Shown here piece by piece: positions 1,356-61,774 of a stretch of 64,000 nucleotides of DNA (within the stretch, counting starts at the first letter, position 1; each line of letters begins with the position of its first letter). Source of the DNA: Emticicia aquatilis (GTDB lineage Bacteria > Bacteroidota > Bacteroidia > Cytophagales > Spirosomataceae); NCBI RefSeq assembly GCF_014644295.1, contig NZ_BMKK01000004.1, forward strand, positions 372,001 through 436,000, written 5' to 3'. The notes beneath the pieces are model-generated. The model was not told where the DNA came from and did not search any database. It saw only the letters and a program-made list of their open reading frames with translations. The position numbers were made by a program, and so were the translations under genes.

Positions 1356-1483
1356 TTAGTGAATGACGAATTATTCGAGTTACGAACGGTTCGCCGTAGC
1401 GATGACGAATAAATTGCGAGAATAATGTTTAGTATAGCATAAAATTCGTAAATCGTCATTCGTAAATCGCAAATCAAAATTCT
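1356..1483. repeat. Intergenic inverted-repeat spacer with ACGG-TTCG-CCGT core
   Basis: The spacer between the protease and the acyltransferase contains the word ATTCGTAAATCG twice near its right end (about 1446-1474), and its reverse complement in degenerate form near its left end (GAATGACGAAT from 1362). The two ends can therefore pair imperfectly. In the middle is a small hairpin, ACGG-TTCG-CCGT at 1386-1397, followed by AGCGAT. The same core occurs at 16384-16395 and, lengthened by one pair, at 60196-60209. Confidence 0.6.
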
Positions 1484-2053
1484 ATGCTAAACTGGATATT
1501 TAAAACAAGCTTTCGTTTATTAGGCTGGAAAGTAGTAAATGTACCTGAAAACCTAAAAAAAGGTCTTTTTGTGGTTGCCCCCCACGCCCGTACCGCTGAT
1601 TTTTTCGTCGGTCTTTGCACTCGCCCGACCATCAACTTAGATATAAAATATCTCGGCAAAGCCGAACTATTTAAACCACCATTTGGCTGGATTTTCCGTG
1701 CTTTAGGAGGTACTCCTGTCTATCGGCACAAAAGCACAAACTTTGTCCAACAAGTAGCCGATACCTTCAATAGTCACGAACAACTCTTAGTTGCTATCGC
1801 TCCCGAAGGTACTCGTAAGAATGTAAGTAAGCTAAAAACGGGTTTTTATTACATGGCACATCAAGCAAAAGTGCCAATTATTATGTCGGGCTTTGATTAC
1901 CCTCGTAAATCTGTTATTTTTGCAGAACCATTCCTAACAAGTGGTGACTTTGAAGCCGATATGAAGAAATATTTCGTACCATTCTTTGAAACCATCGGTG
2001 GAGTAGATAAAGATTGGATAAAAAATTATAAAGCTGGTAAATTTGATGAATAA
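1484..2053 (+). CDS. 1-acyl-sn-glycerol-3-phosphate acyltransferase-like (PlsC family)
   Basis: 189 aa. It carries the acyltransferase block I HX4D as HARTAD (H34, D39) and the block III-like PEGTR at 107-111, which binds the glycerol phosphate in PlsC enzymes. It is shorter than classical PlsC and lacks an obvious N-terminal membrane helix, so it belongs to the short soluble/peripheral group common in Bacteroidota. Likely role is acyl transfer in phospholipid or aminolipid synthesis at the inner face of the membrane. The acceptor cannot be told from sequence alone. Confidence 0.8.
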   Translation: MLNWIFKTSFRLLGWKVVNVPENLKKGLFVVAPHARTADFFVGLCTRPTINLDIKYLGKAELFKPPFGWIFRALGGTPVYRHKSTNFVQQVADTFNSHEQLLVAIAPEGTRKNVSKLKTGFYYMAHQAKVPIIMSGFDYPRKSVIFAEPFLTSGDFEADMKKYFVPFFETIGGVDKDWIKNYKAGKFDE

Positions 2054-2109
2054 AAAGGTCTGATGGTACGTCTTACCCAAACACCAAAGAAATTTGACTG
2101 AAAACAACC

Positions 2110-3282
2110 ATGGAAAAACAAACCAAAGCTATAAGAATACAGACAAAACGCTCACAGTATAGAGAACACTCAACACCGTTGTTTCTGACAAGTAGCTTTT
2201 GTTTTGAAGATGCAGAGCAAGGAAAAGCCCTTTTCGATGAAACACTTGAAGGAAATATCTACACCCGTTTCTCGAATCCATCCGTACAAGAATTTGTCGA
2301 TAAAGTTTGTATGCTCGAAAACTGCGAAGAAGGAATTGCCACTGCAACTGGCATGGCCGCAGTTTTTGCAGGTTTTGCAGCTCACTTAAAATCGGGCGAC
2401 CACGTTGTAGCTTCTCGTGCCTTGTTTGGTTCTGCTCACCAAATTCTGACTCAAATCTTGTCGAAGTGGGGAATCACGCATACATATCTTGATGCAACTG
2501 CTCCAGAAAGCGATTGGGAAGCAGCCATTCAGCCAAATACCAAGATGGTTTATCTTGAAACTCCATCAAACCCTGGTCTTGAATTAGTAGATATGGCAAT
2601 GATTGGCCGATTAGCAAAAAAACATAACCTCATTTATTACGTAGATAACTGTTTCGCAACGCCAATTATTCATACACCAACCGATTTTGGTGCAAACCTA
2701 ATCGTGCACTCGGCCACTAAATTTATGGATGGACAAGGTCGTGTTTTGGGCGGAATCATCACAGGTACAAAAGAACTTATCGCTCCGATTCGTTTCTTCT
2801 GCCGTCATACAGGGCCGTCGATGTCGCCGTTCAATGCTTGGGTTTTATCAAAAAGTCTCGAAACACTCGAAATCCGCATGGCACGCCACTGCGAAAATGC
2901 CATTAAACTGGCTAAAGCGTTAGAAAAAATGGAGGGTATTAAGAATGTAAAATATCCACACCTAACAACTCACCCACAATACGAACTGGCCAAGAAGCAA
3001 ATGAAAGCAGGTGGAGCAATGGTAACATTTGAGCTTGAAGGTGGTTTTGAGCGAGTGAAGAAATTTACGCAACTCGTAAAAATCGCTTCAAATTCATCAA
3101 ATTTGGGCGATTCTCGTACGATTATCACCAATCCTAATACAACAACACACTCTAAATTATCGAAAGACGACAAAGCTAAACTCGGTATTACCGAAGGGCT
3201 TATCCGTTGTTCGGTTGGATTAGAAGACATCAGAGATTTAATTGCTGATTTTAAGCAAGCTGCTAAAAAATCTTTAAGCTAA
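2110..3282 (+). CDS. metZ: O-succinylhomoserine sulfhydrylase / trans-sulfuration PLP enzyme
   Basis: 390 aa, full length for the Cys/Met metabolism PLP-dependent family. The Schiff-base lysine is K204 in HSATKFMDGQGRVLGG, with the PLP-ring aspartate D179 (YYVDNCF), the substrate-binding SNPGLELVD segment and the phosphate-binding TATGMAA stretch. The HSATKFMDGQGR pattern fits O-succinylhomoserine sulfhydrylase (MetZ), which makes homocysteine directly from sulfide; cystathionine gamma-synthase or a lyase cannot be fully excluded. It starts 56 bp after the acyltransferase and ends 16 bp before the next gene. Confidence 0.85.
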   Translation: MEKQTKAIRIQTKRSQYREHSTPLFLTSSFCFEDAEQGKALFDETLEGNIYTRFSNPSVQEFVDKVCMLENCEEGIATATGMAAVFAGFAAHLKSGDHVVASRALFGSAHQILTQILSKWGITHTYLDATAPESDWEAAIQPNTKMVYLETPSNPGLELVDMAMIGRLAKKHNLIYYVDNCFATPIIHTPTDFGANLIVHSATKFMDGQGRVLGGIITGTKELIAPIRFFCRHTGPSMSPFNAWVLSKSLETLEIRMARHCENAIKLAKALEKMEGIKNVKYPHLTTHPQYELAKKQMKAGGAMVTFELEGGFERVKKFTQLVKIASNSSNLGDSRTIITNPNTTTHSKLSKDDKAKLGITEGLIRCSVGLEDIRDLIADFKQAAKKSLS

Positions 3283-3298
3283 TCAATCATCTGAAACA

Positions 3299-3676
3299 AT
3301 GACCAAAACTATTGAGCAAAAATATATTGAAGTAGCCATGAAGGAAGAGAACGCAATGATGTTCTCTCGATTCAATAAGCTCATCAATAATTTATTTTCT
3401 GAAAAAGCTGAAGCTCAAGATGAAATCTTGGCATTAAAATCGCAGATAAATACATTGCAGAAAAGCATCGCTGACCACAAGAAAGAGATAGCAAATCTGA
3501 ATGAGAGACTAAAAAAACAAGAATTTCTTGAAAAAAGTAAAGAAATTCAAAAAGAAAGTGTTAAAATTGTAGCGAATAAAGCTAAAAAGTCAACAGACAA
3601 AGTAGAAATAAAGAAAACAATCACTGAACTGATACAAGAGATTGATGCGTGTATTGCTTTGTTAAACGAAGAATAG
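3299..3676 (+). CDS. Coiled-coil protein of unknown function upstream of zapA
   Basis: 125 aa, very rich in Lys, Glu, Ile and Leu, with heptad-like repeats from about residue 30 to 85 and no signal peptide or membrane segment. No family recognised. It sits 16 bp after metZ and 128 bp before zapA. A short coiled-coil protein directly before zapA suggests a possible cell-division partner, but this is inference from position only. Confidence 0.65.
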   Translation: MTKTIEQKYIEVAMKEENAMMFSRFNKLINNLFSEKAEAQDEILALKSQINTLQKSIADHKKEIANLNERLKKQEFLEKSKEIQKESVKIVANKAKKSTDKVEIKKTITELIQEIDACIALLNEE

Positions 3677-3804
3677 TCAAGTGCAGTCGTAGAATAAGTA
3701 ATAAAAATGGTTTGATTATAAATGCTTTAGCACACGAAACCTATTGATTTATAAAAAATAGAAAATCATTTTTTTGAAATTGACAAATTAAGATTGATTA
3801 CCAA

Positions 3805-5982: not shown

Positions 5983-6002
5983 GATAAACTAAGTTTTTTC
6001 TG

Positions 6003-6030
6003 AAAGGCGATGCAGCAATGTATCGCCTTT
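6003..6030. terminator. Bidirectional hairpin terminator between rny and histidine kinase
   Basis: AAAGGCGAT (6003-6011) pairs with ATCGCCTTT (6022-6030) over a 10-nt loop. A T-run follows on the plus strand and the stem begins with As, so it can serve both convergent genes. Confidence 0.7.
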
Positions 6031-6034
6031 TTTG

Positions 6035-10968: not shown

Positions 10969-11012
10969 AATATGCTGATTCAAATCCACTATGATTTTTT
11001 TATGCAAAACTC

Positions 11013-17796: not shown

Positions 17797-18900
17797 ATGC
17801 AGTTAATTAGAGAAATAATTAAACGTTTTTTGTTCTTCCTGAATATATTGCTTGCAATTTATACTTTATTGGTATATCAGTTGAGCTATTCGGTAAGCGT
17901 AAAACATTGGTTGGCGGGATTCTTAATGATGTCGATGCCTTTTGTTTTATTGGCCAACGGCATTTTTATGCTTATTTGGGCAATAAGATTATCTCCACGT
18001 GCATTTTTCTCTTTGGTTTTATTACTTATCGGTATTCCCTTTATATTACGTACAATTACATGGCATAACATTGATAGCCGTGATACCCGCAAAGGATTTA
18101 GTGTAATGAGCTATAATATGATGTGGTGCGATGCTGTTACGTACGTGCATGAGCATGATACAACCAATGCGATTAATCTTGTAAAAAAGGCAGTCGATAT
18201 AGATGCTGATATTAAATGTTTACAGGAATTATACAACTGGGACGATTTTCCGCAGTTTAGAACAATCAAGAAATTTAGAGGAACTCATAAATACTATACG
18301 TATGTTCATTCAACCCCTGGAAATGACCGTGGACAAGGCGAAATAGGACTGGCTATATTCTCTAAATATCCAATTATAAGAAAACAAGAAAAACACTGGT
18401 CGATAAATCATAATGGCTTGCTATCGGCTGATATTGTGATAAAACGAGATACGATTCGAGTCATAAACGTACAATTACGCTCAATGGGTGTACGTGTGCA
18501 GAAAGTAATTGAAGCCAAAGAAGACAAAGAATTAGCAAAAAAAGAAGCAAAAACGATTTATCATCAGCTTAGAGGAGGTTTTGAGGATAGAGCGATTCAG
18601 GTAAAAGAACTGGAGAAATGGATTGAAGAAAGCCCTTATCCTGTGATGGTTTGCGGAGATTTAAACGAGTTACCGTATGGTTTTGCCTACGGAAAAATTA
18701 GACAATATTTAAGAAATAGTTTTGAAGACGCTGGTCGAGGTTTTGGCTTTACTTATCATAGACAACCAGGTTTTTTGAGAATCGATAATCTATTTTATGA
18801 TGACAAGAAAATTGAGGTAAAGCGTTTTAAAACTTTTTCAGAAACCCCTTATTCTGACCACTATCCGATTTGGGGAGAATATTTAATTTTGAATGATTGA
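17797..18900 (+). CDS. Membrane-anchored endonuclease/exonuclease/phosphatase family protein
   Basis: 367 aa. Three N-terminal membrane helices (about 8-28, 36-60, 66-88) are followed by a DNase I-like (EEP) domain facing the periplasm. Its metal and catalytic signatures are SYNMMW (about 105), LQELYNW (about 145), VCGDLNELPY (about 286-295) and SDHYPIW near the C-terminus. Such membrane-bound EEP proteins are frequent in Bacteroidota and may be phosphodiesterases or nucleases; the substrate is unknown. Its stop codon lies inside the left arm of a 16-bp inverted repeat. Confidence 0.82.
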   Translation: MQLIREIIKRFLFFLNILLAIYTLLVYQLSYSVSVKHWLAGFLMMSMPFVLLANGIFMLIWAIRLSPRAFFSLVLLLIGIPFILRTITWHNIDSRDTRKGFSVMSYNMMWCDAVTYVHEHDTTNAINLVKKAVDIDADIKCLQELYNWDDFPQFRTIKKFRGTHKYYTYVHSTPGNDRGQGEIGLAIFSKYPIIRKQEKHWSINHNGLLSADIVIKRDTIRVINVQLRSMGVRVQKVIEAKEDKELAKKEAKTIYHQLRGGFEDRAIQVKELEKWIEESPYPVMVCGDLNELPYGFAYGKIRQYLRNSFEDAGRGFGFTYHRQPGFLRIDNLFYDDKKIEVKRFKTFSETPYSDHYPIWGEYLILND

Positions 18901-19000
18901 ATGATACAATAAGTGAATTTATAAGAACATACCTTAAAAACTATCCACCTTTATTCTGAAAGGTTAAAATTATTGTCTTTACTCTATCATTCAATCATTC
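18891..19000. repeat. Inverted-repeat spacer, TCATTC word family
   Basis: GAATGATTGAATGATA (18891-18906) and its exact reverse complement (18985-19000) enclose 78 nt. The TCATTC word repeats again at 19001-19014. The left arm includes the stop codon of the EEP gene. Confidence 0.75.
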
Positions 19001-19025
19001 TATCAATCATTCATTATTTTAAAGC

Positions 19026-20178: not shown

Positions 20179-21063
20179 ATGACTGTGGTCATTGTTTATT
20201 ATCAGTCAATTAGCGGCAAAGTGAAATCTCGTCTAAAATTTATTTTCGTATTTCTAACACTCAGTGTAGTTTTCGTTTCGTGCTTTAGTAGATGGATTCT
20301 TACCGAAAAAGAATTAAAAGCACATTACTCAAATAGAATTTCAAAACCACTTTATCATATCATCGAAAATGATTCTACTAAACTTCATTTTGTAACGTTT
20401 GGTATTGATACTGCTCAACCTGTTCTATTTATTCATGGAGCCCCCGGTTCGTGGGATGGCTACATCAATTTACTTGATGATAGTTTACTACAACATAATT
20501 TTCATTTAATTTCAGTTGACCGCCCAGGTTATGGAAAATCTCAAAAACGTCCTAAAAAGAAAGTTTACAGCTTAGAAGAACAAGCCAGAAGCATTATTTT
20601 GGCTCTCAAAAGTAATCATTCTAACAAAAAAGCAATTATTATTGGGCGTTCGTACGGAGCTCCTGTAGCAGCTAAGTTGGCAGCGATGTTTCCCGATAAA
20701 ATCGAAAAAATTGTACTGCTTTCGCCTGCTATCGATCCCGATACCGAGAAATTTTGGTGGTTTTCTAAATTTGGTAAAATTTTCTTGGTGCGTTGGTTTT
20801 TACCCGAACGCATGAACACTGCTACTGATGAAAAATACGCACACATAAAAGAGTTGAAAATACTTAAAAATGATTGGAAAAAAATTCAGTCAGATGTGAC
20901 AGTGATGGCCGGCGGAAAAGATTGGATTGTGGATACAACAAATTTTTCGTTCGCAAAAAAGATGCTTATCGGAAAAAATGCTAAATTTATATTTATTCCT
21001 GAATCTGGCCACTTGATTTCAAGTTCAAGACCCGATTTGGTGAAAAAAGAAATATTTAAGTAG
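20179..21063 (+). CDS. Alpha/beta hydrolase, likely membrane-anchored or lipoprotein
   Basis: 294 aa. A hydrophobic N-terminal segment (about 20-35) ends in VSCFSRW, which could be a lipobox or simply an anchor. The hydrolase core has the oxyanion HGAPGSWDGY, the nucleophile serine in IGRSYGAP, Asp in GGKDWIVD and His in ESGHLIS, so the catalytic triad is complete. Substrate unknown. It starts 49 bp after dprA. Confidence 0.82.
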   Translation: MTVVIVYYQSISGKVKSRLKFIFVFLTLSVVFVSCFSRWILTEKELKAHYSNRISKPLYHIIENDSTKLHFVTFGIDTAQPVLFIHGAPGSWDGYINLLDDSLLQHNFHLISVDRPGYGKSQKRPKKKVYSLEEQARSIILALKSNHSNKKAIIIGRSYGAPVAAKLAAMFPDKIEKIVLLSPAIDPDTEKFWWFSKFGKIFLVRWFLPERMNTATDEKYAHIKELKILKNDWKKIQSDVTVMAGGKDWIVDTTNFSFAKKMLIGKNAKFIFIPESGHLISSSRPDLVKKEIFK

Positions 21064-21066
21064 TTC

Positions 21067-21125
21067 ACTATAGTCGATGTTCAATAGTAAATACTGTGGA
21101 CTATTGACTACTGAGCGTGGACTAA
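21067..21125. repeat. Intergenic copy of the GTCGATAG/GTCCAC word family
   Basis: The stretch contains TAGTCGATG, TGTGGACTATTGACTA and GCGTGGACTA, degenerate copies in both orientations of words that recur at 32496-32534, 32736-32797, 53547-53578 and 56716-56790. Confidence 0.55.
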
Positions 21126-21159
21126 AAAAACTAACCATTAACCAATCTTCTTCAACATC

Positions 21160-29531: not shown

Positions 29532-29631
29532 ATTTTTAGACAAAAGATTTTAGACAAAAGACAAGAGATTTCAAAAAAGAGAAAGTATTTCAAAAAAATC
29601 TTTTGTCTCTTGTCTAATATCTTACATCTTA
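29532..29631. repeat. Inverted-repeat spacer, GACAAAAGA word family
   Basis: GACAAAAGATTTT occurs near the left end (from about 29540), with related words AGACAAAAGACAAGAG. Their reverse complements AAAATCTTTTGTC and TCTTGTCTAATATC lie near the right end, so the spacer between ccoH and the SafE gene can fold back on itself. Confidence 0.6.
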
Positions 29632-30069: not shown

Positions 30070-30080
30070 TTTATTGAAAT

Positions 30081-30160
30081 TTTGAATGATAGAATGAGTG
30101 AATGATAGAGTAATAAAACAGAGGAATATTCACTCATTCTATCATTGACTCATTCAAAAT
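30081..30160. repeat. Inverted-repeat spacer, TCATTCTATCATT word family
   Basis: AATGATAGAATGAGTGAAT (30085-30103) has its exact reverse complement at 30128-30146 around a 24-nt loop, and flanking AAATTTTGAATGA also recurs inverted (TCATTCAAAATTT). Same word type as 18891-19014 and 60275-60291. Confidence 0.8.
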
Positions 30161-30164
30161 TTAT

Positions 30165-32495: not shown

Positions 32496-32534
32496 TAGTC
32501 GATGGTCCACGGACAATAGTCGATACTTAGTCCA
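32496..32534. repeat. GTCGATAG/GTCCAC word spacer between ccoQ and ccoP
   Basis: TAGTCGATGGTCCACGGACA, then AATAGTCGATACTTAGTCCA: two linked copies of the word pair that fills the 32736-32797 spacer on the other side of ccoQ. Confidence 0.55.
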
Positions 32535-32553: not shown

Positions 32554-32718
32554 CTATTTTTCAGAATCGAAAGGAAGGTTTTCCATGTGTTTTACATATT
32601 TTTTGTCGGCTTTAAAAACCCAAATTCCAAGAGCCGTAAAGAATACCATAAAGACTATTAGCGAAAAGATGGGATAAATTGAAACCCCTTCGATGCTATT
32701 TAATGCGTTCTTAAACAT
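32554..32718 (-). CDS. ccoQ: CcoQ-like small subunit of cbb3 oxidase
   Basis: 54 aa, read directly from the minus strand (ATG 32716-32718, stop 32554-32556). One membrane helix (about residues 13-36, IYPIFSLIVFMVFFTALGIW), then a charged tail with FKADKKYVKHMENLP. Length, position between ccoNO and ccoP and the single helix followed by a Lys-rich tail fit CcoQ/FixQ, which stabilises the oxidase. No other gene is in this gap. Confidence 0.85.
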   Translation of the reverse strand: MFKNALNSIEGVSIYPIFSLIVFMVFFTALGIWVFKADKKYVKHMENLPFDSEK

Positions 32719-32735
32719 AATTTTATTTGTTTATT

Positions 32736-32797
32736 AGTCCACTGTCGATAGTCCACAGATTTGTTTGCTATTGACCGTGGACAGTGGACTATCGACT
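32736..32797. repeat. Inverted word spacer between ccoNO and ccoQ
   Basis: AGTCCACTGTCGATAGTCCA on the left and GTGGACAGTGGACTATCGAC on the right contain the same two words (AGTCCACTGT and CGATAGTCCAC) in opposite orientation but changed order, so the ends pair imperfectly. Part of a five-site family in this window. Confidence 0.65.
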
Positions 32798-32801
32798 AAA
32801 G

Positions 32802-37396: not shown

Positions 37397-37421
37397 AAAT
37401 AGCCTTGATTTATGAAACAAA
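37387..37421. promoter_or_regulatory. Perfect 14-bp inverted repeat over a start codon
   Basis: TTTGTTTCATAAAT (37387-37400) and ATTTATGAAACAAA (37408-37421) are exact reverse complements with a 7-nt loop. The ATG (37394-37396, minus strand) of the secreted protein gene is inside the 3' arm of the transcript, so the hairpin would hide the initiation site. It could also be a protein-binding operator. Confidence 0.6.
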
Positions 37422-37475
37422 AGTCTTCAAAAGCCGAACAAAATATATTGAGAAATATCACTGATAAAGATGACC

Positions 37476-37652
37476 TTACTCATCTTTCTTAATTTTTGCT
37501 TCGGGACTCTGAACAGGGTTATCGAACAACATTCTGACCGATGGCGTGTAAGTATCGTCGTACTGTCCATCTTTGGTTGCCCAAATAAATGCTCCTAAAA
37601 AACCGCCTGCGACCACAATAGCGGCTACGGCTAAAAATAAGATAATGCTCAT
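37476..37652 (-). CDS. ccoS: cbb3-type oxidase assembly protein CcoS
   Basis: 58 aa read from the minus strand (ATG 37650-37652, TAA 37476-37478). One N-terminal membrane helix (residues 2-24, IILFLAVAAIVVAGGFLGAF), then WATKDGQYDDTYTPSVRML, the CcoS signature (W...GQYDD...P..R.L). CcoS is required for cofactor insertion into cbb3 oxidase. It is downstream of ccoI with a palindromic element between. Confidence 0.92.
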   Translation of the reverse strand: MSIILFLAVAAIVVAGGFLGAFIWATKDGQYDDTYTPSVRMLFDNPVQSPEAKIKKDE

Positions 37653-37669
37653 AGTTGTATTTATTGTAG

Positions 37670-37722
37670 AACAAGTCTCCCGACTTGTTCACGGTTTGTC
37701 CAAACAAGTCGGGAGACTTGTT
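37670..37722. repeat. Twin-hairpin palindrome between ccoI and ccoS
   Basis: AACAAGTCTCCCGACTTGTT (37670-37689) and its exact reverse complement (37703-37722) enclose 13 nt. Each arm is itself a small hairpin (CAAGTC-TCCC-GACTTG). It may act as terminator or REP-like element. Confidence 0.8.
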
Positions 37723-37725
37723 TTA

Positions 37726-50522: not shown

Positions 50523-50603
50523 TTTTTAATTGATAATGGAGAATTGAAAATGAATAATGATTTATCAATTATCAATTCTCAATTATCAATTCTCAATTAT
50601 CAA
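50523..50603. repeat. Inverted-repeat spacer, AATTGATAATTGAGA word family
   Basis: AATTGATAATGGAGAATTGA near the left end pairs, with one mismatch, with TCAATTCTCAATTATCAATT, which is repeated as a tandem (period about 14 nt) over the right half. Between convergent genes, so it may terminate both. Confidence 0.7.
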
Positions 50604-52007
50604 TTACTTCGCAATCAGGAGACTTTTAAGTTTGGCAGCATCCAAATATTCTCCGTGAGCTACTAAACCATATATATTTTGTGTAGCCGAAATGTTGAGC
50701 AACGGGTTTTCGTTGAGCAACAAAATATCTGCTTTTTTGCCCTTGCTCACACTTCCGTATTTTTCTGATTTATTCAAAAAATCAGGCCCATTAATGATTG
50801 ATGCCTGCAAAGCCTGCAATGGTGTAAGTCCATTTTTGACCATCAGTTCCAATTCTTGGTGAAGTCCCAAGCCTGGGTAATCAAAACTATTCAAATATCC
50901 AGCATCAGTTCCTGCCAAAATCTTCACGCCCGAACGCTGCAATAATGGCAACAAAGACGCTGCTTTTTCGATGGTTCGGTGACGAATTTCGATAGCTTCT
51001 TTGGTATCTTTGGCCGCACGTTGCACTCGCCAATCGTAAGTTTTGCGTAAACCGGGCCCAATATATTTCAAGAACGCATCATTTTGGTGGTCGTTTACAT
51101 CTAAAAATGCAGTTGCATAACTAATTGATAATGTTGGAGTTACGGCAGTTTTATTTTTTGCTAAAATCTTGAATGCCGCTTCGGCAGTTGCTTCATCAAA
51201 TTCGTTGAGGGCTTTTAGTGATAAATCTCTGGCGGTTTGTGTGCCATTGGCTACTTGGTCGCTTAGCTCTTTCTGATTTTTTAAACCTGCACGCAATAGA
51301 TACGTAATATGCTCAACGCTACTCAAGCCCGCTTCGCTCACTTGCTCAATCGTAAATACAGGCGGAATATGTGCTGATGTTTTATAACCTCTCCTTCTTG
51401 CCTCTTTGATGCTTCCCAAATAAATCTCGGGTTTGATTGTATTGTCGGTAATCTTCACAAAATCGACTTTTAGTTTATCCAGTGAATCAAGGGCTTTGTT
51501 TACTTCATCCATTGTACCAACCTCAATATCACCCAACCAAATCGACTTGTAACCTTCGAGTTTTGGCCCAGAAGTAAAAATTGTTGGCCCCAGAAGTTTG
51601 CCATCATTCACTGCCTTACGCCATTCCAGCACACTTGGTGAAATATCAGCTGCTGCATCTCTTACGGCCGTGATTCCCATCGCAATATACAGATTCATCA
51701 AATCTTTATTTTCTTGAATCAAGCTATCGCCACCGCCAAAATGCACGTGCATATCCCAAAGGGCTGGCATTACGAATTTACCTTTGGCAGAAATCGTTTG
51801 ATTGGCTTTATATTTACTCAGTTCGGCAGGTGAGCAAACATTTATAATCTCGCCTTTATCAACAATAACTACCTTATTATTAGTCAGTTTCCCTGTTCGA
51901 ATATCAATAATATTGGCGTTTGTAATAGCTAAGTCGACTTTGCTTTGAGCGATACAAAGTGAAGAAATGAATAAAATGAGGACGCTTGTCAGAGTAGTTT
52001 TTTTCAT
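50604..52007 (-). CDS. Exported amidohydrolase family protein
   Basis: 467 aa with signal peptide MKKTTLTSVLILFISSLCIAQ. Metal-dependent TIM-barrel hydrolase: MHVHFGGG (HxH, about 85-87), KITD (the usual carbamylated-lysine position near 185), SAHIPP and SSVEHITYLL (histidines near 215 and 235), and AGTDAGYLN (catalytic Asp near 370). Similar to imidazolonepropionase-like and prolidase-like secreted members. Substrate unknown; periplasmic. Confidence 0.87.
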   Translation of the reverse strand: MKKTTLTSVLILFISSLCIAQSKVDLAITNANIIDIRTGKLTNNKVVIVDKGEIINVCSPAELSKYKANQTISAKGKFVMPALWDMHVHFGGGDSLIQENKDLMNLYIAMGITAVRDAAADISPSVLEWRKAVNDGKLLGPTIFTSGPKLEGYKSIWLGDIEVGTMDEVNKALDSLDKLKVDFVKITDNTIKPEIYLGSIKEARRRGYKTSAHIPPVFTIEQVSEAGLSSVEHITYLLRAGLKNQKELSDQVANGTQTARDLSLKALNEFDEATAEAAFKILAKNKTAVTPTLSISYATAFLDVNDHQNDAFLKYIGPGLRKTYDWRVQRAAKDTKEAIEIRHRTIEKAASLLPLLQRSGVKILAGTDAGYLNSFDYPGLGLHQELELMVKNGLTPLQALQASIINGPDFLNKSEKYGSVSKGKKADILLLNENPLLNISATQNIYGLVAHGEYLDAAKLKSLLIAK

Positions 52008-52104
52008 ATTTGAAATCGGTATTGACTACAAATATGAGTAAAAATATGCAAAACAAATATTCTTTATGGATTAAAAGCATTAAAAATGAGGTCTTTTATT
52101 CTTC

Positions 52105-52231
52105 AAACCACGTCCTTTAGGGCGTGGAAGATATAAAAAAGCATTTGGCTTTAGTCTTGACTTAGAAGCAGTCATGGCTAAAGCCACAATTCCACTTTTT
52201 ACTTTTTACCACGCCCTAAAGGACGTAGTTT
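52105..52231. repeat. Nested palindromic intergenic element (GGGCGTGG type)
   Basis: Outer arms 52105-52127 and 52209-52231 are reverse complements at 22 of 23 positions (core GTCCTTTAGGGCGTGG). Inside them GGCTTTAG (52147-52154) and CTAAAGCC (52178-52185) form an inner stem. Total 127 bp, no gene inside. Architecture matches the element at 58179-58317. Confidence 0.8.
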
Positions 52232-52257
52232 AAGCATAATTATAACTTTTTGATTCT

Positions 52258-53470: not shown

Positions 53471-53546
53471 CGGGCAAGATTGATTTTTGGGTGGTCAAAT
53501 CAAGTAAATTAAATAATCGACATTTTGTTCTTAGTAGTTAAAATTA

Positions 53547-53578
53547 CTATGGACTATCGACTATTGACCGTGGACTAT
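53547..53578. repeat. GTCGATAG/GTCCAC word spacer
   Basis: ACTATGGACTATCGACTATT directly followed by GACCGTGGACTA: one compact copy of the word family, between the Crp-like gene and galM. Confidence 0.6.
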
Positions 53579-53598
53579 TTATGACCACCCAAACTTTA

Positions 53599-54651: not shown

Positions 54652-55067
54652 TATATTTGATTATTTGTAGAATTTTAAAGATTTGATTCGGCAAAACTAC
54701 ATAATCTTTTTTAAAATACTTTCGGAATGGGCATGTTAGACCTTAATTTTTACCACTGAGGTTCACGAAGTTTAACACAGAGTTACACGGACTAACTAAC
54801 TCCGTGCAACTCCGTGAAATACTCATTTTTAACTCCGTGGTAAAAAAACGTTGTAGGAGAATTTCGGTATTTAAGATAAATTAAGAAACATTCTTGCGAG
54901 AAAGTCGCTAAAAAACTCCAATTTGTCTATCTAATTATCCAAACATCTACTCAATTCATTAGTTTTAGTTTTTGTATAAATCGTTTTTCTGTTAAAAAAT
55001 TTCTTATCACCGAATAATTGTTCATTTTTACAATAAATTTCATTTTTAATTCAATCAACAACCTAAC
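54652..55067. other. 416-bp divergent spacer between galM and tldD1
   Basis: A -7 box for galM (TAGTTTTG, minus strand, 54692-54699) lies at the left. A word-type inverted repeat occupies 54747-54845: TTTTACCAC (54747-54755) pairs with GTGGTAAAA (54837-54845), and CACAGAGTTACACGGA (54776-54791) pairs at 14 of 16 positions with TCCGTGCAACTCCGTG (54801-54816). The right part (54850-55067) is AT-rich and must carry the tldD1 promoter; I see no convincing box. No gene seen. Confidence 0.6.
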
Positions 55068-56711
55068 ATGAAAAGAAGGGATTTTATCCAATTATCTGGT
55101 ATGGGTTTGGGAGCTATGATGGGTTCTTCGATTCCCGTACTGGGAAATATGGTACCTGTCGAACATCTTCTTGAGCCGGGAGCTGATATAGCTACCAAAA
55201 AGCGATTAGCTGATATTGCTCTCAACGCAACCAAATCACGAGGTGCAACCTACACAGATGTTCGCATTGGTCGTTACTTACAACAATTCTTATTTACCCG
55301 TGAAACCAAAGTGCAGAACATCACCAATGCTGAATCTTATGGCGTTGGTATCAGAGTAATTGCCAATGGTACTTGGGGATTTGCCGCCACCAGCGACGTA
55401 ACACCCGACGGTATTGCAAAATGTGCCGAAACGGCCGTGGCTATTGCCAAAGCAAACTCAAAGATTCAGAAAGAGCCAGTTATCTTAGCACCACAAAAAG
55501 GTGTTGGCGAAGTAACATGGAAAACTCCAATCAAGAAAAATGCTTTTGAGGTTCCTGTGCAAGAAAAAATTGATTTATTGATGAAAGTAAACAGCGAAGC
55601 CATGAAAAATGGTGCTGGATTTGTAACATCAAACTTATTTTTTGTAAACGAACAAAAGTATTTCGCTTCTTCTGATGGTTCATACATCGACCAAGATGTG
55701 CATCGTATTTGGCCAACTTTCACAGTTACGGCCGTTGATAAAGCCGCAGGAAAATTCAAAACTCGTGATGCCATCAGCTCTCCAATGGGTATGGGCTATG
55801 AATATTTAGATGGTTTGGCCAGCGAAAAAATTTCCGCTCCAAATGGTCTGATTGGCTATCGTAACTCTTACGACATGGTTGAAGATGCAATCATGGCATC
55901 GAAACAAGCTCAACAAAAACTCACTGCAAAGTCAGTTCCAGCTGGCAAATATGATTTAGTACTTGACCCAAATCACCTCGGACTAACCATCCACGAATCA
56001 GTTGGTCACCCACTCGAACTTGACCGTGTATTGGGTTACGAGGCCAACTATGCAGGAACATCTTTCGCAACACTCGATAAATGGAAAACAAAAGCTTTCA
56101 ACTACGGTAGTAAGCAAGTAAATATCGTAGCTGATAAAACTCAACCTTATACGCTCGGAACTGTAGGTTATGACGACGAAGGTGTGCCATGCAAAGAATG
56201 GGATTTGATAAAAGACGGTGTTTTGGTAAATTATCAAGCAATCCGTGACCAAGTGAATATCTTGGGCGAAAATGCGTCGCACGGTTGCTGCTATGCCGAT
56301 AACTGGAACTCGGTTCAATTCCAACGTATGCCAAATGTTTCGCTTCGTCCAGGCAAAGAGAAATTGAGCGTTTTTGATATGATTAAAGGCGTTGAAAAAG
56401 GTATCTATATCATCGGTCGTGGCTCGTATTCGATTGACCAACAACGATATAACTTCCAATTTGGTGGACAACTTTTCTACGAAATCAAAAACGGAGAACT
56501 CGTAGGAATGCTCGATGATGTGGCTTATCAATCAAATACACAAGAGTTCTGGAACTCATGTGTGCAGATTTGTGATAAAGACGATTACCGTACTTTTGGT
56601 TCGTTTTTCGATGGAAAAGGTCAGCCTTCGCAGGTAAGTGCCGTTTCTCACGGAAGTGCAACCACTCGTTTCAATGGTGTAAACGTAATCAATACTGGAA
56701 GAAAGATTTGA
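55068..56711 (+). CDS. tldD: TldD-like metalloprotease with twin-arginine leader (copy 1)
   Basis: 547 aa. Residues 1-30 are a Tat-type leader (KRRDFIQLSGMGLGAMMG). The TldD/PmbA fold follows, with the metal-binding HESVGH at 309-314 and the downstream ASHGCCYADNW cysteine region. In E. coli TldD pairs with TldE (PmbA) as a peptidase that degrades unfolded small proteins and matures microcin B17. Here the partner gene follows 96 bp downstream, and both genes are repeated in a second pair. Export is unusual, since E. coli TldD is cytosolic. Confidence 0.9.
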   Translation: MKRRDFIQLSGMGLGAMMGSSIPVLGNMVPVEHLLEPGADIATKKRLADIALNATKSRGATYTDVRIGRYLQQFLFTRETKVQNITNAESYGVGIRVIANGTWGFAATSDVTPDGIAKCAETAVAIAKANSKIQKEPVILAPQKGVGEVTWKTPIKKNAFEVPVQEKIDLLMKVNSEAMKNGAGFVTSNLFFVNEQKYFASSDGSYIDQDVHRIWPTFTVTAVDKAAGKFKTRDAISSPMGMGYEYLDGLASEKISAPNGLIGYRNSYDMVEDAIMASKQAQQKLTAKSVPAGKYDLVLDPNHLGLTIHESVGHPLELDRVLGYEANYAGTSFATLDKWKTKAFNYGSKQVNIVADKTQPYTLGTVGYDDEGVPCKEWDLIKDGVLVNYQAIRDQVNILGENASHGCCYADNWNSVQFQRMPNVSLRPGKEKLSVFDMIKGVEKGIYIIGRGSYSIDQQRYNFQFGGQLFYEIKNGELVGMLDDVAYQSNTQEFWNSCVQICDKDDYRTFGSFFDGKGQPSQVSAVSHGSATTRFNGVNVINTGRKI

Positions 56712-56715
56712 TAAA

Positions 56716-56790
56716 AGTCGATAGTCCACAGACCACAGTTAATAATTTAGAAAGTTATTAACTGTCAATTGTTGAACATTGACTACTTAC
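56716..56790. repeat. GTCGATAG/GTCCAC word spacer between tldD1 and tldE1
   Basis: AGTCGATAGTCCACAGACCA, then CAGTTAA...TTAACTG and TCAATTGTTGAACATTGACT: one clear copy of the word family plus short palindromes, in the gap before tldE1. Confidence 0.5.
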
Positions 56791-56807
56791 ATTTTAAAAC
56801 TACAAAA

Positions 56808-58163
56808 ATGAATAAAATATTATCAAAAGAAGAAGCTAAAAAGATAATAGATAAGGTTTTAGCATTTTCAAAGGCAGATGAAATGAGTGTGAGTCTCAGC
56901 GGAGGTCGCACAGGAAATATTCGTTATGCCCGAAACTCAGTCTCTACCAGTGGCGAATCATACGACCAATCATTGGCAGTTACGGCAGTTTTTGGCAAAC
57001 GCTCAGGCACAGCCACCATCAACGAATTTGATGATGCTTCGCTCGAAAAAACTGTAAGAAGAGCCGAGGAAATTGCTCGTCTTGCTCCCGAAAACTCTGA
57101 ATATATGCCAATGCTCGGGCCACAAACGTATTTAGAGTCGCCGACATTTGCCGAAAGCACTGCCAATATCGACCCCGATTACCGTGCCAAAGCAGCATTT
57201 GATAGCATTGACCCATGTTCTAAAAAAGGTTTAACAGCGGCAGGTTATTTAGAAGATTCAACTGGCTACTCAGCCATTGGCAACAGCAAAGGACTTTTTG
57301 GATATAATAAAGCCACTTCTGTTGATTTTTCTATTACTGTTCGTACAGCCGATGGCCTTGGTTCGGGTTATGCTATTCGAGATTTCAACGATGTATCTAA
57401 ACTCAGCACCAAACAAGCAACCGAAATTGCGATGCAAAAAGCATTGGCTTCAAGCAATGCAAAAGCACTTGAGCCAGGAAAATACACCGTAATTCTCGAA
57501 CCAGCAGCTTCGATTGATTTATTGCAAAACATGATGCGAAGCATGGATGCACGAAATGCCGACGAAGGACGTAGTTTCTTGAGCAAAAAAGGTGGCGGTA
57601 CTCGTTTAGGAGAAAAATTATTCGACGAAAGAGTAAATATTTATTCTGACCCAACCAATATCGAAATTCCAAGCTCAGGCTTTGGCGGTGGCGGCGGTGG
57701 TGGCCGTTTTGGTGGCGGAGGTAGCGATGGTCGCCCACAAGAAAAAATCTCTTGGATTGAAAATGGCGTTGTGAAAAACGTTTATTATTCAAGATTTTGG
57801 GCAGATAAAAAAGGAGTAAAAGCAATTGCTCCACCTGCGGGCTTTATCATGGCTGGTGGAAACGAATCTCTGGCCGATTTGATTAAAGGAACAGAAAAAG
57901 GCATCTTAGTTACACGTTTCTGGTATATCCGTGCCGTTGACCCTCAAACGTTATTGTACACAGGACTTACTCGTGACGGAACTTTCTATATCGAAAAAGG
58001 ACAAATCAAATACCCAATCAAAAACTTCCGTTTCAACGAAAGTCCAATCATTATGCTCAATAACCTTGAAGCAATGGGCAAACCGACTCGTGTAGGTGGT
58101 TGTTTGGTTCCGCCACTAAAAATCAGAGACTTCACATTCAGTAGTTTATCTGATGCGGTATAA
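56808..58163 (+). CDS. tldE: TldE/PmbA-like protein (copy 1) with glycine-rich loop
   Basis: 451 aa from ATG 56808. TldD/PmbA fold without the HExxxH metal motif, as expected for the non-catalytic TldE subunit. The ends IRYARNSVSTSG and KIRDFTFSSLSDAV are conserved with copy 2. Residues 291-308 are GFGGGGGGGRFGGGGSDG, a flexible insert absent from copy 2. No signal peptide, although its partner TldD has a Tat leader. Confidence 0.88.
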   Translation: MNKILSKEEAKKIIDKVLAFSKADEMSVSLSGGRTGNIRYARNSVSTSGESYDQSLAVTAVFGKRSGTATINEFDDASLEKTVRRAEEIARLAPENSEYMPMLGPQTYLESPTFAESTANIDPDYRAKAAFDSIDPCSKKGLTAAGYLEDSTGYSAIGNSKGLFGYNKATSVDFSITVRTADGLGSGYAIRDFNDVSKLSTKQATEIAMQKALASSNAKALEPGKYTVILEPAASIDLLQNMMRSMDARNADEGRSFLSKKGGGTRLGEKLFDERVNIYSDPTNIEIPSSGFGGGGGGGRFGGGGSDGRPQEKISWIENGVVKNVYYSRFWADKKGVKAIAPPAGFIMAGGNESLADLIKGTEKGILVTRFWYIRAVDPQTLLYTGLTRDGTFYIEKGQIKYPIKNFRFNESPIIMLNNLEAMGKPTRVGGCLVPPLKIRDFTFSSLSDAV

Positions 58164-58528
58164 AATTAAATAGGATAAATTCATTGCCGTCAGTTTCAAT
58201 CGACGGATACATTAAAACAAACAAATTTGACTTTAGTCAAACCACAAATTTCGACTAAAGTCAAAATATGTTTTGTTTTCATCCAAGATTCCGTCAGCTA
58301 AAGCAGTCGGTAATGAATCTTAGTTCTATCAAATTTTATTATTAAAATGTCTCATGTGTCCTTTGAATAGTTTATACAAACGTTTTATCATTTCAAAGAG
58401 ACCTTCCACTCAACAAGACTTATTACCTTTTATCAAAATCCAACAGACAATTTTTAAGCTTAAAAGAATATTCTATAAATTAGACTTCATTTATAAACTT
58501 AATATTTTACACAAAAACCGAAAAAGCT
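58164..58528. repeat. 365-bp spacer with nested palindromic element (58179-58317)
   Basis: ATTCATTGCCG (58179-58189) and its near reverse complement CGGTAATGAAT (58307-58317) bound the element. Inside, TTTGACTTTAGTC (58226-58238) and GACTAAAGTCAAA (58253-58265) are perfect 13-bp inverted arms. Each outer end also holds a CCGTC...GACGG mini-hairpin. A related single hairpin lies at 62415-62443. The remainder (58318-58528) is AT-rich; it must hold the start signals for tldD2, but I recognise none. Confidence 0.75.
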
Positions 58529-60184
58529 TTGAAAAGAAGAGATTTTATCCAGTTATCCAGCTTAGGTTTTGGGGGACTCATGTTACCCAATATGCCGACT
58601 GCTGGTATTCCGATTATCGGAAATTCTGTGTCGCAAGAAGCATTAATTGACGGAGCAATTGATGTAGCCGTCAAGAAACGCCTTGCCGATGCTGCTCTCA
58701 ATGCCGCAAAAGCCAAAGGAGCTACCTACACCGATGTTCGTATCGGTCGTTATCTCAATCAATTTGTTGTTACTCGTGAAGACAAAGTTCAAAACATTGT
58801 CAATACCGAGTCTTATGGCGTAGGTGTGCGAGTAATTGCCAACGGTTGTTGGGGATTTGCGGCCGTTGTTGATGCAAAATCAGAAGCCGACACCGCACGT
58901 GCAGCCGAAGAGGCCGTTGCGATTGCGAAAGCCAACGCAAAACTCATGTCACAGCCCGTAATCCTTGCTCCGCAAAATGGCTACGGTGAGGTAAGTTGGA
59001 AAGCACCTATTCAACGAAATTCGTTTGAAGTGCCAATCAAAGAAAAAGTTGATTTACTTCTTGGAGTAAACGATGCTGCCTTGAAAAATGGGGCAAATTA
59101 TGTCAATTCAGTACTTTTCATGGTTAATGAGCAAAAGTACTTTGCTTCATCGGATGGTTCATACATCGACCAAGACATTCACCGTATTTGGCCGATTGCC
59201 TCAGTAACTGCCATTGACCCGAAAACGGGTAAATTTGAAACTCGTCAGGCACTTTCTGCCCCAGTTGGTATGGGTTATGAGTATTTACAGACCAATCCGA
59301 AAGATAAAGTTACGGGCATCACGACACGCTACAACAAAGGCTACGATATGCTCGAAGACGTAACTGCTGCAGCCAAACAAGCCAAAGAAAAGCTAACAGC
59401 AAAATCGGTTGAGGCAGGAAAATACGACTTAGTACTTGACCCTTCTCACTTGTGGCTAACGATTCACGAATCAGTAGGTCACCCACTCGAACTTGACCGT
59501 GTATTGGGCTACGAAGCCAATTTTGCGGGAACTTCTTTCGCTACGCTTGATAAGTGGCAAAGCAAAAACTTCAATTATGGCAGCAAGGAAGTAAACTTCT
59601 TTGCCGATAAAACGCAAGTTGGTTCACTCGGTGCAGTTGGTTGGGATGATGAAGGCGTAAAAACCAAACAATGGGATTTAGTAAAAGATGGTACTTTGGT
59701 AAACTACCAAGCTATTCGTGACCAAGCACACATCATCGGTGAAAAAGAATCGCACGGATGTTGCTATGCTGATAGCTGGTCGTCGGTGCAATTCCAACGC
59801 ATGGCTAATGTCTCGTTGGCAGCAGGAAAAACACCTTTGACGGTGGCTGAAATGATTAAAGACGTTAAGAAAGGAATATATATCATTGGCGATGGCTCAT
59901 TCTCTATCGACCAACAACGCTATAATTTCCAATTTGGCGGACAGTTATATTACGAAATTAAAGATGGACAAATTGCAGGAATGCTCAAAGACGTGGCGTA
60001 TCAATCAAATACGCAAGAGTTTTGGAATTCGTGCGTAAAAATTTGTGACGAACGTGATTATAGACTCGGAGGTTCATTCTTCGATGGCAAGGGACAACCA
60101 TCACAATCGAGTGCCGTTTCGCACGGAAGTGCAACAGCTCGTTTCAATGGTGTTAATGTAATCAATACGGCAAGGAAAGTCTAA
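58529..60184 (+). CDS. tldD: TldD-like metalloprotease with twin-arginine leader (copy 2), TTG start
   Basis: 551 aa. The codon aligned with the ATG of copy 1 is TTG at 58529, followed at once by KRRDFIQLSSLGFGGLM; no in-frame ATG lies upstream, and the next ATG would remove the Tat leader. HESVGH is at 313-318, and the ESHGCCYADSW region is conserved. Much of the sequence is identical to copy 1, so this is a tandem paralogue. The spacer before it contains a palindromic repeat. Confidence 0.88.
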   Translation: MKRRDFIQLSSLGFGGLMLPNMPTAGIPIIGNSVSQEALIDGAIDVAVKKRLADAALNAAKAKGATYTDVRIGRYLNQFVVTREDKVQNIVNTESYGVGVRVIANGCWGFAAVVDAKSEADTARAAEEAVAIAKANAKLMSQPVILAPQNGYGEVSWKAPIQRNSFEVPIKEKVDLLLGVNDAALKNGANYVNSVLFMVNEQKYFASSDGSYIDQDIHRIWPIASVTAIDPKTGKFETRQALSAPVGMGYEYLQTNPKDKVTGITTRYNKGYDMLEDVTAAAKQAKEKLTAKSVEAGKYDLVLDPSHLWLTIHESVGHPLELDRVLGYEANFAGTSFATLDKWQSKNFNYGSKEVNFFADKTQVGSLGAVGWDDEGVKTKQWDLVKDGTLVNYQAIRDQAHIIGEKESHGCCYADSWSSVQFQRMANVSLAAGKTPLTVAEMIKDVKKGIYIIGDGSFSIDQQRYNFQFGGQLYYEIKDGQIAGMLKDVAYQSNTQEFWNSCVKICDERDYRLGGSFFDGKGQPSQSSAVSHGSATARFNGVNVINTARKV

Positions 60185-60307
60185 TAAGAATTACGACGGG
60201 GTCGCCCGTGCGATTTGGATTTAAGAAATGGTTACCATTCTTACAAAAAAATCTATATTCCACTTTTCTATTTGCTCATTCACTCATTCTTTAATTCTAA
60301 ATTATTC
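60185..60307. repeat. Spacer before tldE2 with ACGGG-GTCG-CCCGT hairpin
   Basis: ACGGG-GTCG-CCCGT (60196-60209), preceded by TTACG and followed by GCGATT, is the third member of the family at 1386-1397 and 16384-16395. Further right, CTCATTCACTCATTCT (60275-60291 region) is a single arm of the TCATTC word family. Confidence 0.55.
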
Positions 60308-61645
60308 ATGTCAGTCATATTATCAGAAAATGAAGCTAAAACCTTGCTTAAAAAGGTTTTGAGCTATTCAAAGGCCGATGATTGTGAAATTAATATTTCG
60401 GCCAATATCAACGGAAATATCCGCTATGCACGCAATGAAGTTTCGACAAGCGGTGCATTAACCAATCAAAATCTGCAAGTGCAATCGGCTTTTGGCAAAA
60501 GAGTTGGTGTGGCTACAATCGACGAATTCGATGATGCCTCGCTCGAAAAAGTAGTACGTCGCTCGGAAGAATTGGCTCGCCTTGCTCCCGAAAACCCTGA
60601 ATACATGGGTGTTTTGGAGCCTCAGCCATATATGAAATCAGAAGGATATTTTGATTCAACCGCCAACATCAACCCTGATGTACGTGCTGAAGCCGTAATG
60701 AAAAGTTTGAAACTTACTCGTGAGCAAAAATTAGTTGCAGCGGGCTTTTTAGAAGACTCGAAAGGCTATTCGGCCATGATGAACTCAAAAGGCCTGTTTG
60801 CCTACTACAAAAGTACCAATATCAATTATTCACTCACGGTTCGCACCGAAGATGGCACTGGTTCGGGTTATGTAATCAAAGGTTTTAGCGATGTAAATAA
60901 ACTCGATACTGCTGCCGCTACCAAAATTGCGATTCAAAAAGCAGTCGGGTCGAAAAATGCCAAAGCACTCGAACCAGGCAAATATACAGTAATTCTTGAA
61001 CCAACAGCAGCGGCTGTTTTGCTCGAAAATATCTATTTCGATATGGATGCTCGTAGTGCCGATGAAGGTCGTTCGTTTTTCAGCAAACAAGGAGGAAAAA
61101 CAAAACTGGGCGAAAAAATTGTCGATGAACGAGTAACCATTTTCTCCGACCCTGCTTATGCAGATTTACCAGCATCTCCGTGGTCAGGCGATGGACAATC
61201 TCAAGAAAAACGTATGTGGATTGAAAAAGGTGTAGTTAAAAACCTATCCTATTCTCGTTTTTGGGCGAAAGAGAAAGGTGTAAAACCCATTCCTTTCCCA
61301 ACAAACTTTATTATGCTTGGTGGCGATGCAACGCTCGATGAGATGATAAAAAGCACCAAAAGAGGCATTTTAGTGACAAAACTATGGTATATCCGCTCAG
61401 TTGACCCACAAACGCTTCTACAGACTGGTCTTACCCGTGACGGCACTTTCTATATTGAAGATGGAAAAATCAAATATCCGATTAAAAACTTCCGATTCAA
61501 TGAAAGTCCAATTATCATGCTCAATAATCTCGAAATGTTGGGAAAAACTGAGCGTGTGGTCAGTACCGAATCGAACCAAAATTATATGGTACCACCCATG
61601 AAAATTCGAGAATTTACATTTTCGAGTTTATCTGATGCGGTGTAG
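60308..61645 (+). CDS. tldE: TldE/PmbA-like protein (copy 2)
   Basis: 445 aa from ATG 60308 (an upstream TTG frame covers the repeat spacer). Same fold and conserved ends as copy 1 (IRYARNEVSTSG, KIREFTFSSLSDAV), without HExxxH. Where copy 1 has its glycine-rich loop, copy 2 has the short LPASPWSGDGQS. No signal peptide. It forms the second tldD-tldE unit. Confidence 0.88.
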   Translation: MSVILSENEAKTLLKKVLSYSKADDCEINISANINGNIRYARNEVSTSGALTNQNLQVQSAFGKRVGVATIDEFDDASLEKVVRRSEELARLAPENPEYMGVLEPQPYMKSEGYFDSTANINPDVRAEAVMKSLKLTREQKLVAAGFLEDSKGYSAMMNSKGLFAYYKSTNINYSLTVRTEDGTGSGYVIKGFSDVNKLDTAAATKIAIQKAVGSKNAKALEPGKYTVILEPTAAAVLLENIYFDMDARSADEGRSFFSKQGGKTKLGEKIVDERVTIFSDPAYADLPASPWSGDGQSQEKRMWIEKGVVKNLSYSRFWAKEKGVKPIPFPTNFIMLGGDATLDEMIKSTKRGILVTKLWYIRSVDPQTLLQTGLTRDGTFYIEDGKIKYPIKNFRFNESPIIMLNNLEMLGKTERVVSTESNQNYMVPPMKIREFTFSSLSDAV

Positions 61646-61774
61646 AATTGGTTATATGTTATTGGTTATTGGTAAAAATTTGTATTGCCTTTATCTTGAA
61701 ATAGTTTAATAAAAAGGCATTAAAAATTTATCAATAACCAATAACTAATTTCCCAGTAACCAATAACTATTCAA
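61646..61774. repeat. Inverted-repeat spacer, GTTATTGG word family
   Basis: GTTATTGGTTATTGGTAAA near the left (about 61658-61675) has its reverse complement as ATCAATAACCAATAAC near 61731-61746, and the word recurs again as AGTAACCAATAACTATTC before the next gene. Confidence 0.65.

Follow-up and report, generated by a model that had tools for sequence, protein, structure and literature searches.

Inverted pairs of tandem heptamer arrays in intergenic spacers of Emticicia: shared polarity, word replacement and a proposed origin by slippage and template switching

Introduction

Tandem repeats of seven-nucleotide words (heptamers) go by the name of STRR, and the work on Calothrix belongs here. 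This article deals with intergenic repeats of related construction in Emticicia aquatilis (Bacteroidota; Cytophagales; Spirosomataceae), encountered in a stretch of 64,000 nucleotides that we call the window (NCBI RefSeq assembly GCF_014644295.1, contig NZ_BMKK01000004.1, positions 372,001 to 436,000 of the forward strand). A preliminary description of this DNA had pointed to ten or more intergenic spacers built from short words in both orientations, so that their left and right halves can pair, and the existence of such inverted-word spacers is confirmed here.

Heptamer repeats have been noted since at least the 1990s, and in the excerpts considered here their origin is treated only as a suggestion of polymerase slippage (PMC4692102). 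Among the closest described systems are the GGGAATC heptamers of Xanthomonas, whose arrays form inverted pairs of convergent orientation, 70 in one genome and 75 in another (Rehm 2015, PMC4692102), and the same source describes Nostoc heptamer repeats of the form GGGGA(C/T)T. Like the elements of Emticicia, these are dispersed intergenic G-rich heptamer arrays, and theirs vary in unit number between species. In contrast to the one word type per genome reported in those excerpts, Emticicia carries several families per genome, which are replaced at orthologous sites; and whereas the Xanthomonas work involves a quadruplex tract rule, the Emticicia words are free of G tracts, no run of three G occurring in words such as GAATTAA, GAATGAT and GTTATTG.

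A second group comprises the TAACTGA arrays of Cyanobacteria, Beggiatoaceae and some Bacteroidetes (MacGregor 2015, PMC4679880), where array insertions and deletions between two Cyanothece strains are mostly of 7 nt and a single array can mix words. These STRR-type arrays resemble ours in being tandem, intergenic and of mixed words, and the words CGTAAAT/CGAATTA are common to Emticicia and cyanobacterial plasmids; the Maribeggiatoa TAACTGA sets, however, are almost all direct (169, with one inverted), whereas those of Emticicia are inverted. Small dispersed intergenic palindromes are also known as REP or REPIN elements associated with RAYT transposases (PMC3116915), but their sequences differ from those of the heptamer elements. 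Finally, template switching is described as a source of new stems, its intrastrand version being suggested to favour G in the 5' arm (PMC8794818), and as homogenizing inverted arms and inverting the loop between them (PMC8604942). The short-range inverted copies, in-place inversion and 5' G bias are shared with our elements, but the excerpts of these two papers deal with RNA genes and yeast coding DNA and contain no heptamer dictionary.

Within the open-access literature, outside which most subscription papers lie, we found no account of inverted heptamer pairs of many families, of their common polarity or of the replacement of words at fixed sites. As far as searched, the many word families, the shared polarity and the word replacement are new; convergent pairs as such are already known from GGGAATC. 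Any mechanism has to account for the strict polarity, for a period that stays constant while the words are exchanged, and for their replacement at fixed sites. With these constraints, culturable Emticicia or Dyadobacter could serve to test slippage, template switching, transposition and 3'-end addition against one another.

A seven-nucleotide period in intergenic spacers

The genome that holds the window comprises 6.75 Mb in 36 contigs, of which 2.064 Mb were sampled for genome-wide counts. One protein encoded in the window is up to 97% identical to Emticicia records. Open reading frames (ORFs) were called with a simple longest-ORF script (at least 80 amino acids), thresholds were of our own choosing, and the 1045 spacers of 50-500 nt in the genome-wide set were each scored against three shuffled sets. 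We counted 14-base segments that, shifted by a given lag, agree with themselves in 13 or all 14 positions; lag 7 yields 11.57 per 10 kb in intergenic DNA against 0.11 in coding DNA. The intergenic peaks, at 7, 14, 21 and 28, are missing from coding DNA, and smaller shoulders stand at 15 and 16. The 1045 spacers hold 42 arrays at lag 7 (5, 4 and 5 in the shuffled sets) and 19 at lag 8 (6, 6 and 4); lags 6 and 9 show no excess over the shuffles, and lag 10 shows little (9 vs 1, 2 and 6). An inverted score of at least 14 was reached by 230 spacers, compared to 7, 8 and 9 after shuffling, and the combination of such a score with a lag-7 or lag-8 array defines a strict set of 29 spacers, compared to 1, 0 and 0. 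In consisting of tandem 7-nt units that are dispersed and intergenic, the arrays agree with the STRR type. The same array rule gave none in 50 kb of E. coli, nine in a stretch of a Fremyella plasmid and three in the first 50 kb of the window.

The heptamer families include GAATTAA, GTTATTG, CTGAGTT, AATTGAT, CGAATTA, GTCGATA and GACAAAA, to which an octamer family, GAATGAGT, is added. Each spacer family had been said to use its own word; the word families are indeed distinct, but nearly all share the period of seven, sometimes eight, nucleotides. The AACTCCGTG word at 54747 lies outside this rule, with a period of about 10-11 nt by eye. As a separate observation, the most frequent intergenic 11-mers of the genome come from a CCCCTAAAGGGG / CCCCTAACCCCTAA set, which represents a heptamer of telomere-like type together with a palindrome of its own.

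For the ten spacers named at the outset, folding was compared with 60 or 200 dinucleotide shuffles apiece. Nine of them reach a z score of -2.5 or lower: 1356 (-2.5), 18891 (-3.8), 21067 (-3.3), 29532 (-5.3), 30081 (-5.7), 32496/32736 (-8.1), 50523 (-4.0), 53547 (-4.2) and 61646 (-7.5). The exception, 54747, is unconvincing (-1.4, with 5 of 60 shuffles equally low). A strict inverted-alignment score, compared with 100 shuffles per spacer, exceeds all of them only at 29544, 30070, 50523 and 61646; it is weaker at 18901, 53471, 32462 and 54652, where 4, 8, 11 and 18 shuffles score as high, and not significant at 1356 (55 of 100) and 21064 (68 of 100). Applied to single spacers, this score is too strict for degenerate words, and folding and the genome-wide counts were added. 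The pairing of the halves described at the outset is thus borne out by folding in nine cases; the order of words, as also described, differs between arms.

Chance, or an AT-rich composition, might be thought to produce such patterns: the words are rich in A and T, and the loosely defined elements include ordinary palindromes or REPs (e.g., at 52008). The shuffled spacers, proposed from the start as the refuting control, refute this explanation for the class as a whole, given the near-absence of strict elements among them and the lack of excess at lags 6 and 9 and its smallness at lag 10, and we regard it as extremely improbable, although the single spacer 54747 may be due to chance.

Inverted pairing and strand polarity

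The relation of each array to the rest of its own spacer was assessed for 72 strict arrays in 61 spacers, with other array-bearing spacers as the control. The inverted match averages 13.2 against 7.8 in the control, whereas the direct match (7.9 against 7.7) remains at control level, so that the second copy is mirrored rather than repeated; 32% of the arrays lie above their own 95th control percentile in inverted and 12% in direct orientation.

The paired arrays share one polarity. Paired arrays in which G and C are unequal number 39 (from 28 spacers, the two arms of one pair counting as two arrays in some cases); in every one of them the G-rich strand converges on the loop, and this holds for 28 arrays between codirectional, 7 between convergent and 4 between divergent genes, with none opposed. 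Two convergent arrays of one word with the G-rich strand first, as in Xanthomonas, are therefore found here as well. Under looser criteria, the 5' arm contains more G than C in 46 of 56 elements, less in 7 and equal amounts in 3, while palindromes outside the heptamer class show no such preference (80 vs 78 of 174). Where a family could be assigned, which was the case for 32 of the 56 elements (six families, 24 elements being left without one), the polarity agrees in 32 of 32. It recurs in other Emticicia genomes (19 vs 2 of 24 elements, orthologous sites included and hence not fully independent) and in a set of 26 loci around one gene in Dyadobacter and relatives (16 vs 4 of 20 elements, partly orthologous), three of the four exceptions in the latter being GACCGCC- or GACCGCT-type words. 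Fifteen GAATGA clusters comprise 13 that run forward and then reverse, one that is reverse only and one that runs forward-reverse-forward, and in a genome of another family in the order all seven GAATGA loci with both orientations agree with the rule, three further loci having a single orientation.

Part of the polarity at start-codon edges is explained by background, since array-free start edges are themselves skewed (612 vs 221 of 918); array-free stop edges are not (324 vs 322 of 718). Accordingly, the polarity of arrays at start edges (16 of 20 single arrays, 14 of 17 paired ones) falls within the background skew. Single arrays lead with their G strand away from the nearer ORF edge in 25 of 30 cases, including 9 of 10 at stop edges, the only edges free of such skew. 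The nearness of arrays to ORF edges (median 9 nt) was discarded as evidence, paired arrays being necessarily off centre. In Xanthomonas, arrays lie nearer to the ORF on the 5' side, at 28 vs 160 nt on average (PMC4692102), which may be read as the same polarity rule.

Such a polarity would be expected if DNA 3' ends were extended, i.e., if a break in a spacer were healed by telomerase-like addition of the G-strand word to its 3' ends and the ends were then joined. Convergence of the G strands in all three gene arrangements, the lead of single arrays away from the nearer ORF edge, also where background is absent, and the unlike word order of the two arms would all agree with this explanation, which nevertheless appears very improbable to us: start-edge polarity does not rise above the background, loops may hold ancestral sequence (C5:344773, see below) or terminator-like and REP-like repeats, and degenerate words of many families per genome are ill-suited to one template.

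Change at orthologous sites

Ten genomes of the same genus were compared with the present genome (G000). An inverted element may persist at an orthologous site while being built from other words. At 30070-30164, GAATGA words are found in G000, G008 and G002, GAGTGTA/GAATTAA-type words in G009 and GAATTAA-type words in G010 and G005. At 61646-61774, four word sets occur within the genus: GTTATTG in G000 and G005, GCNNTAR in G010 and, by eye, G008, GGCAGTA in G009 and G002, and GGAGAAA in G001, G006 and G007; G004 has an unrelated hairpin (by eye). CTGAGTT-family words occupy the site 29539..29623 in G008 and G010, with GACAAAA words kept in G002; at 54750..54843, by eye, G008 has an unrelated hairpin and G002 retains similar words; and at 56712..56768, CAAAG octamers replace GTCGATAGTCCACAG in G008, G010 and G002, and by eye also in G009. 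At several sites, the family words were not found in the orthologous spacers of outlying species.

Other changes are smaller. Arm lengths differ between G009 and G002 by 21 nt at C1:196408 and by 14 nt at C5:309157, and between G008 and G010 by one heptamer after tldD (by eye). The element at 30070 is inverted in place in G008 (direct score 27.5, inverted 48.5, against G000), while that of G002 keeps the direction of G000 (53.0 direct). At C5:344773, a new arm stands 93 nt from its partner, and the loop shares sequence with relatives that are devoid of that arm.

Replacement of whole elements at the same spacer is what non-autonomous mobile elements would produce, each word family being a small fold-back element moved by an enzyme in trans and replacement being insertion beside an older element or within it. 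With spacer flanks that are on average 92.3% identical, G009 and G002 are wholly different at 30070 and at C5:331515. Several further findings agree with mobility: the ends of GAATGA elements, TTTTGAATGA...TCATTCAAAA, are seen by eye to recur in both Emticicia and the Dyadobacter-and-relatives set; the strict word pattern has a scattered distribution within the phylum (see below); and whole heptamer spacers align to other spacers in 43 of 56 cases (median longest alignment 86 nt), twelve listed alignments being 71-86% identical with possible weak similarity beyond the arms. Loops of at least 20 nt, however, are seldom shared, only one of 32 (C3_289857) matching another spacer, over 62 nt, and the other listed loop matches being array words, a small insert or stretches of 17-25 nt; moreover, heptamer arrays were not seen in the 220-nt flanks of 30 Y1 transposase loci of the genus read by eye. 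Mobility is in our view a serious but clearly less probable alternative to a copying process acting in place.

Slippage and template switching as the proposed origin

The explanation that we consider best, with a probability of roughly 55%, is that STRR-type heptamer arrays made by slippage are paired and flipped by template switching. Tandem heptamer, in part octamer, arrays of the STRR kind would stand as convergent inverted pairs, in which an arm would grow or shrink by whole units through replication slippage, as the unit differences at three sites suggest. The mirrored arm would be made, and partly homogenized, by template switching during replication, probably on a nascent strand that carries the G-rich word and folds back on itself; the same process may also flip elements in place, as in the one case at 30070. 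The exchange of one word set for another within a spacer is observed, but lies outside the proposed mechanism, and elements would be tolerated outside genes, the process being mainly mutational. Template switching between arms, for which there is precedent (PMC8604942, PMC8794818), would account for the mirrored copy, for loops that are retained and for inversion in place. The lag peaks and the strand polarity are likewise counted in favour of this origin. Of the interpretations offered in the preliminary description, that of a copying process which generates palindromes fits best in view of the whole 7-nt differences in arm length at some sites, the in-place inversion, the inverted second copy and the unlike word order.

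A number of observations weigh against this explanation. Gap lengths in array-bearing spacers show no peak at 7 nt between close genomes: three gaps of 7 nt and two of 14 nt occur among 31 for G009/G002 and none of either length among 24 for G000/G008, other lengths being commoner. A scan of other orthologous pairs, those without G000, flagged only 30070 and yielded no further in-place inversion. The similarity of arms within elements is inflated by the detection criterion, and the 5' A excess of the arms (A>T in 35, A<T in 18) is opposite to the U-A excess in the excerpts of PMC8794818. The presence of the same words at many loci and in other genera is beyond template switching alone, and so is the abrupt replacement of words.

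Occurrence in other genera and phyla

The strict GAATGA pattern is present in 6 of 296 Bacteroidota genomes, and the reversed control in none. A search of one CGTAAAT/CGAATTA element against 72,556 plasmids returned seven matching records, all cyanobacterial, whereas GTTATTG and GAATGA elements found no match in the plasmid searches, so that CGTAAAT/CGAATTA is the one family for which sharing of words outside the Bacteroidota was found. Of the five arrays in a 50-kb stretch of a Planktothrix plasmid, four face a strong inverted partner, always with the same polarity; in plasmid stretches of Dolichospermum and Tolypothrix, strong partners are absent for most arrays. Separately, the genome G176, which belongs to another family and seems to have a higher GC content, has intergenic regions enclosed by GAATGAG octamer arms (L291, L292, L294-L298); at L291, L292 and L295, a REP-like repeat and a terminator-like hairpin can be made out by eye in the enclosed region.

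Speculatively, and with little likelihood, a word-specific synthesis might write G-strand heptamers inward from both spacer edges in several phyla, with reusable words such as GAATGAGT, CGTAAAT, GTTATTG and others. If true, a site would keep its structure while its word is rewritten, and the boldest form would be a bacterial telomere-like addition to 3' ends.

Gene context, terminators and REP elements

The spacers had been described as often lying between convergent or cotranscribed genes, and for convergent genes this fails in the heptamer class. The strict set of 29 comprises 22 codirectional, 5 convergent (p 0.80 for enrichment, hence none found) and 2 divergent spacers, a looser set of 79 comprises 54, 11 and 14, and the 1045 spacers overall comprise 663, 166 and 211, respectively. 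Strong palindromes in general (inverted score of at least 16, 127 spacers) are, by comparison, enriched between convergent genes (53 convergent, 7 divergent).

These counts bear on whether the elements are selected RNA hairpins, i.e., terminators, stabilizers of mRNA 3' ends or intercistronic stems, selection maintaining their structure and leaving their sequence free to vary. A hairpin kept at one site with different words, the strong folds and a possible under-use of divergent spacers in the strict set (p 0.097; not seen in the looser set) agree with selection. Yet besides the lack of convergent enrichment, flanking T tracts are no commoner (19 of 56) than in other palindromes (77 of 174), many orthologous spacers are without family words, and neither the 7-nt period nor the G/C polarity is required by hairpin function; we therefore deem this explanation unlikely. 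The terminator reading of the preliminary description does not fit the class and was rejected as its label on account of the gene context and T tracts, although single elements may still terminate, and strong hairpins in such spacers are not necessarily terminators. The hairpins so formed may have some role in mRNA.

Among transposases, the present genome has ten Y1_Tnp matches, and Y1 transposase genes have palindromes beside them. The 30 Y1 loci mentioned above included three of these ten matches, and their flanks carry other palindromes or none, with heptamer arrays at 0 of 30. An origin from RAYT/REP was set aside on these grounds, and transposase-linked REPs look separate from heptamer elements. 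The window itself holds long palindromes, at 52008-52257, 58164-58528 and 37421-37725, whose arms are similar to GGCTTTAGCC or CCCGACTTG and which resemble RAYT-linked REPs more than heptamer elements.

Elements and neighbouring features of the window

From left to right, the window contains an inverted pair of the CGAATTA/CGTAAAT family at 1359..1475 (left arm about 1359-1384, right arm about 1444-1475), whose family words were not found in the orthologous spacers of G005 and G003. An inverted GAATGAT/GAATGAG octamer-family pair lies at 18885..19016 (strict arrays 18889-18910 and 18983-19008), a GTCGATA/GTCCACA-family hairpin, supported by folding, at 21061..21126, an inverted GACAAAA/GACAAGA heptamer pair at 29539..29623 (arms 29544-29571 and 29596-29623), and a second GAATGAT/GAATGAG octamer pair, with ends AATTTT...AAAATT, at 30082..30157.

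What had been taken as one spacer, 32496/32736, consists of two arrays flanking an ORF of 54 amino acids on the minus strand (32554..32718), which lies in a stretch conserved in relatives and probably encodes a small subunit of a cbb3 oxidase. On one side stands a GTCGATG/GTCCACG-family array (32496..32534) and on the other an inverted GTCCACA/GTCGATA-family pair (32734..32801), the word order of which differs in G008. Further along, an inverted AATTGAT/AATTGAG heptamer pair is located at 50523..50606 (arms about 50527-50559 and about 50562-50606), its family words not being found in G003, the sole ortholog found. The words described at 53547 are present, as a single GACTATC/GACTATT array (53546..53577), but rather than forming the hairpin they occupy the loop of a GGGTGGTC/GACCACCC hairpin (53486-53593), which is found arrayless in G002. 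The remaining elements are the weak AACTCCGTG-word fold-back (54750..54843), the GTCGATAGTCCACAG words (56712..56768) and an inverted GTTATTG/GTTACTG heptamer pair that encloses an AT-rich inner stem (61650..61769). The ten window proteins scanned are ordinary enzymes and transport proteins, and neither an Rfam match above the gathering score nor a tRNA was found in the window.

An insert family of about 20 nt, ATCGCTACGGCGAACCGTT / ATCGCACGGGCGACCCCGTC, occurs inside or beside heptamer arrays, among others as an insert of about 19 nt in the first pair (1385-1403), at about 16389 and about 60201 of the window, at L304 and at C5:309182. One variant has six copies, all intergenic, of which five have clear array flanks by eye, while the sixth (60201) takes up most of a 30-nt spacer. 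The insert presumably resembles certain Nostoc repeats that are small, dispersed and inserted into heptamers, and work by Elhai in 2008 on small dispersed repeats of cyanobacteria probably overlaps with it. Finally, two TldD/PmbA genes and two genes of about 550 amino acids at 55068-61645 form an apparent tandem duplication, as judged from cross-matches of 55-58 kb with 58-61.6 kb.

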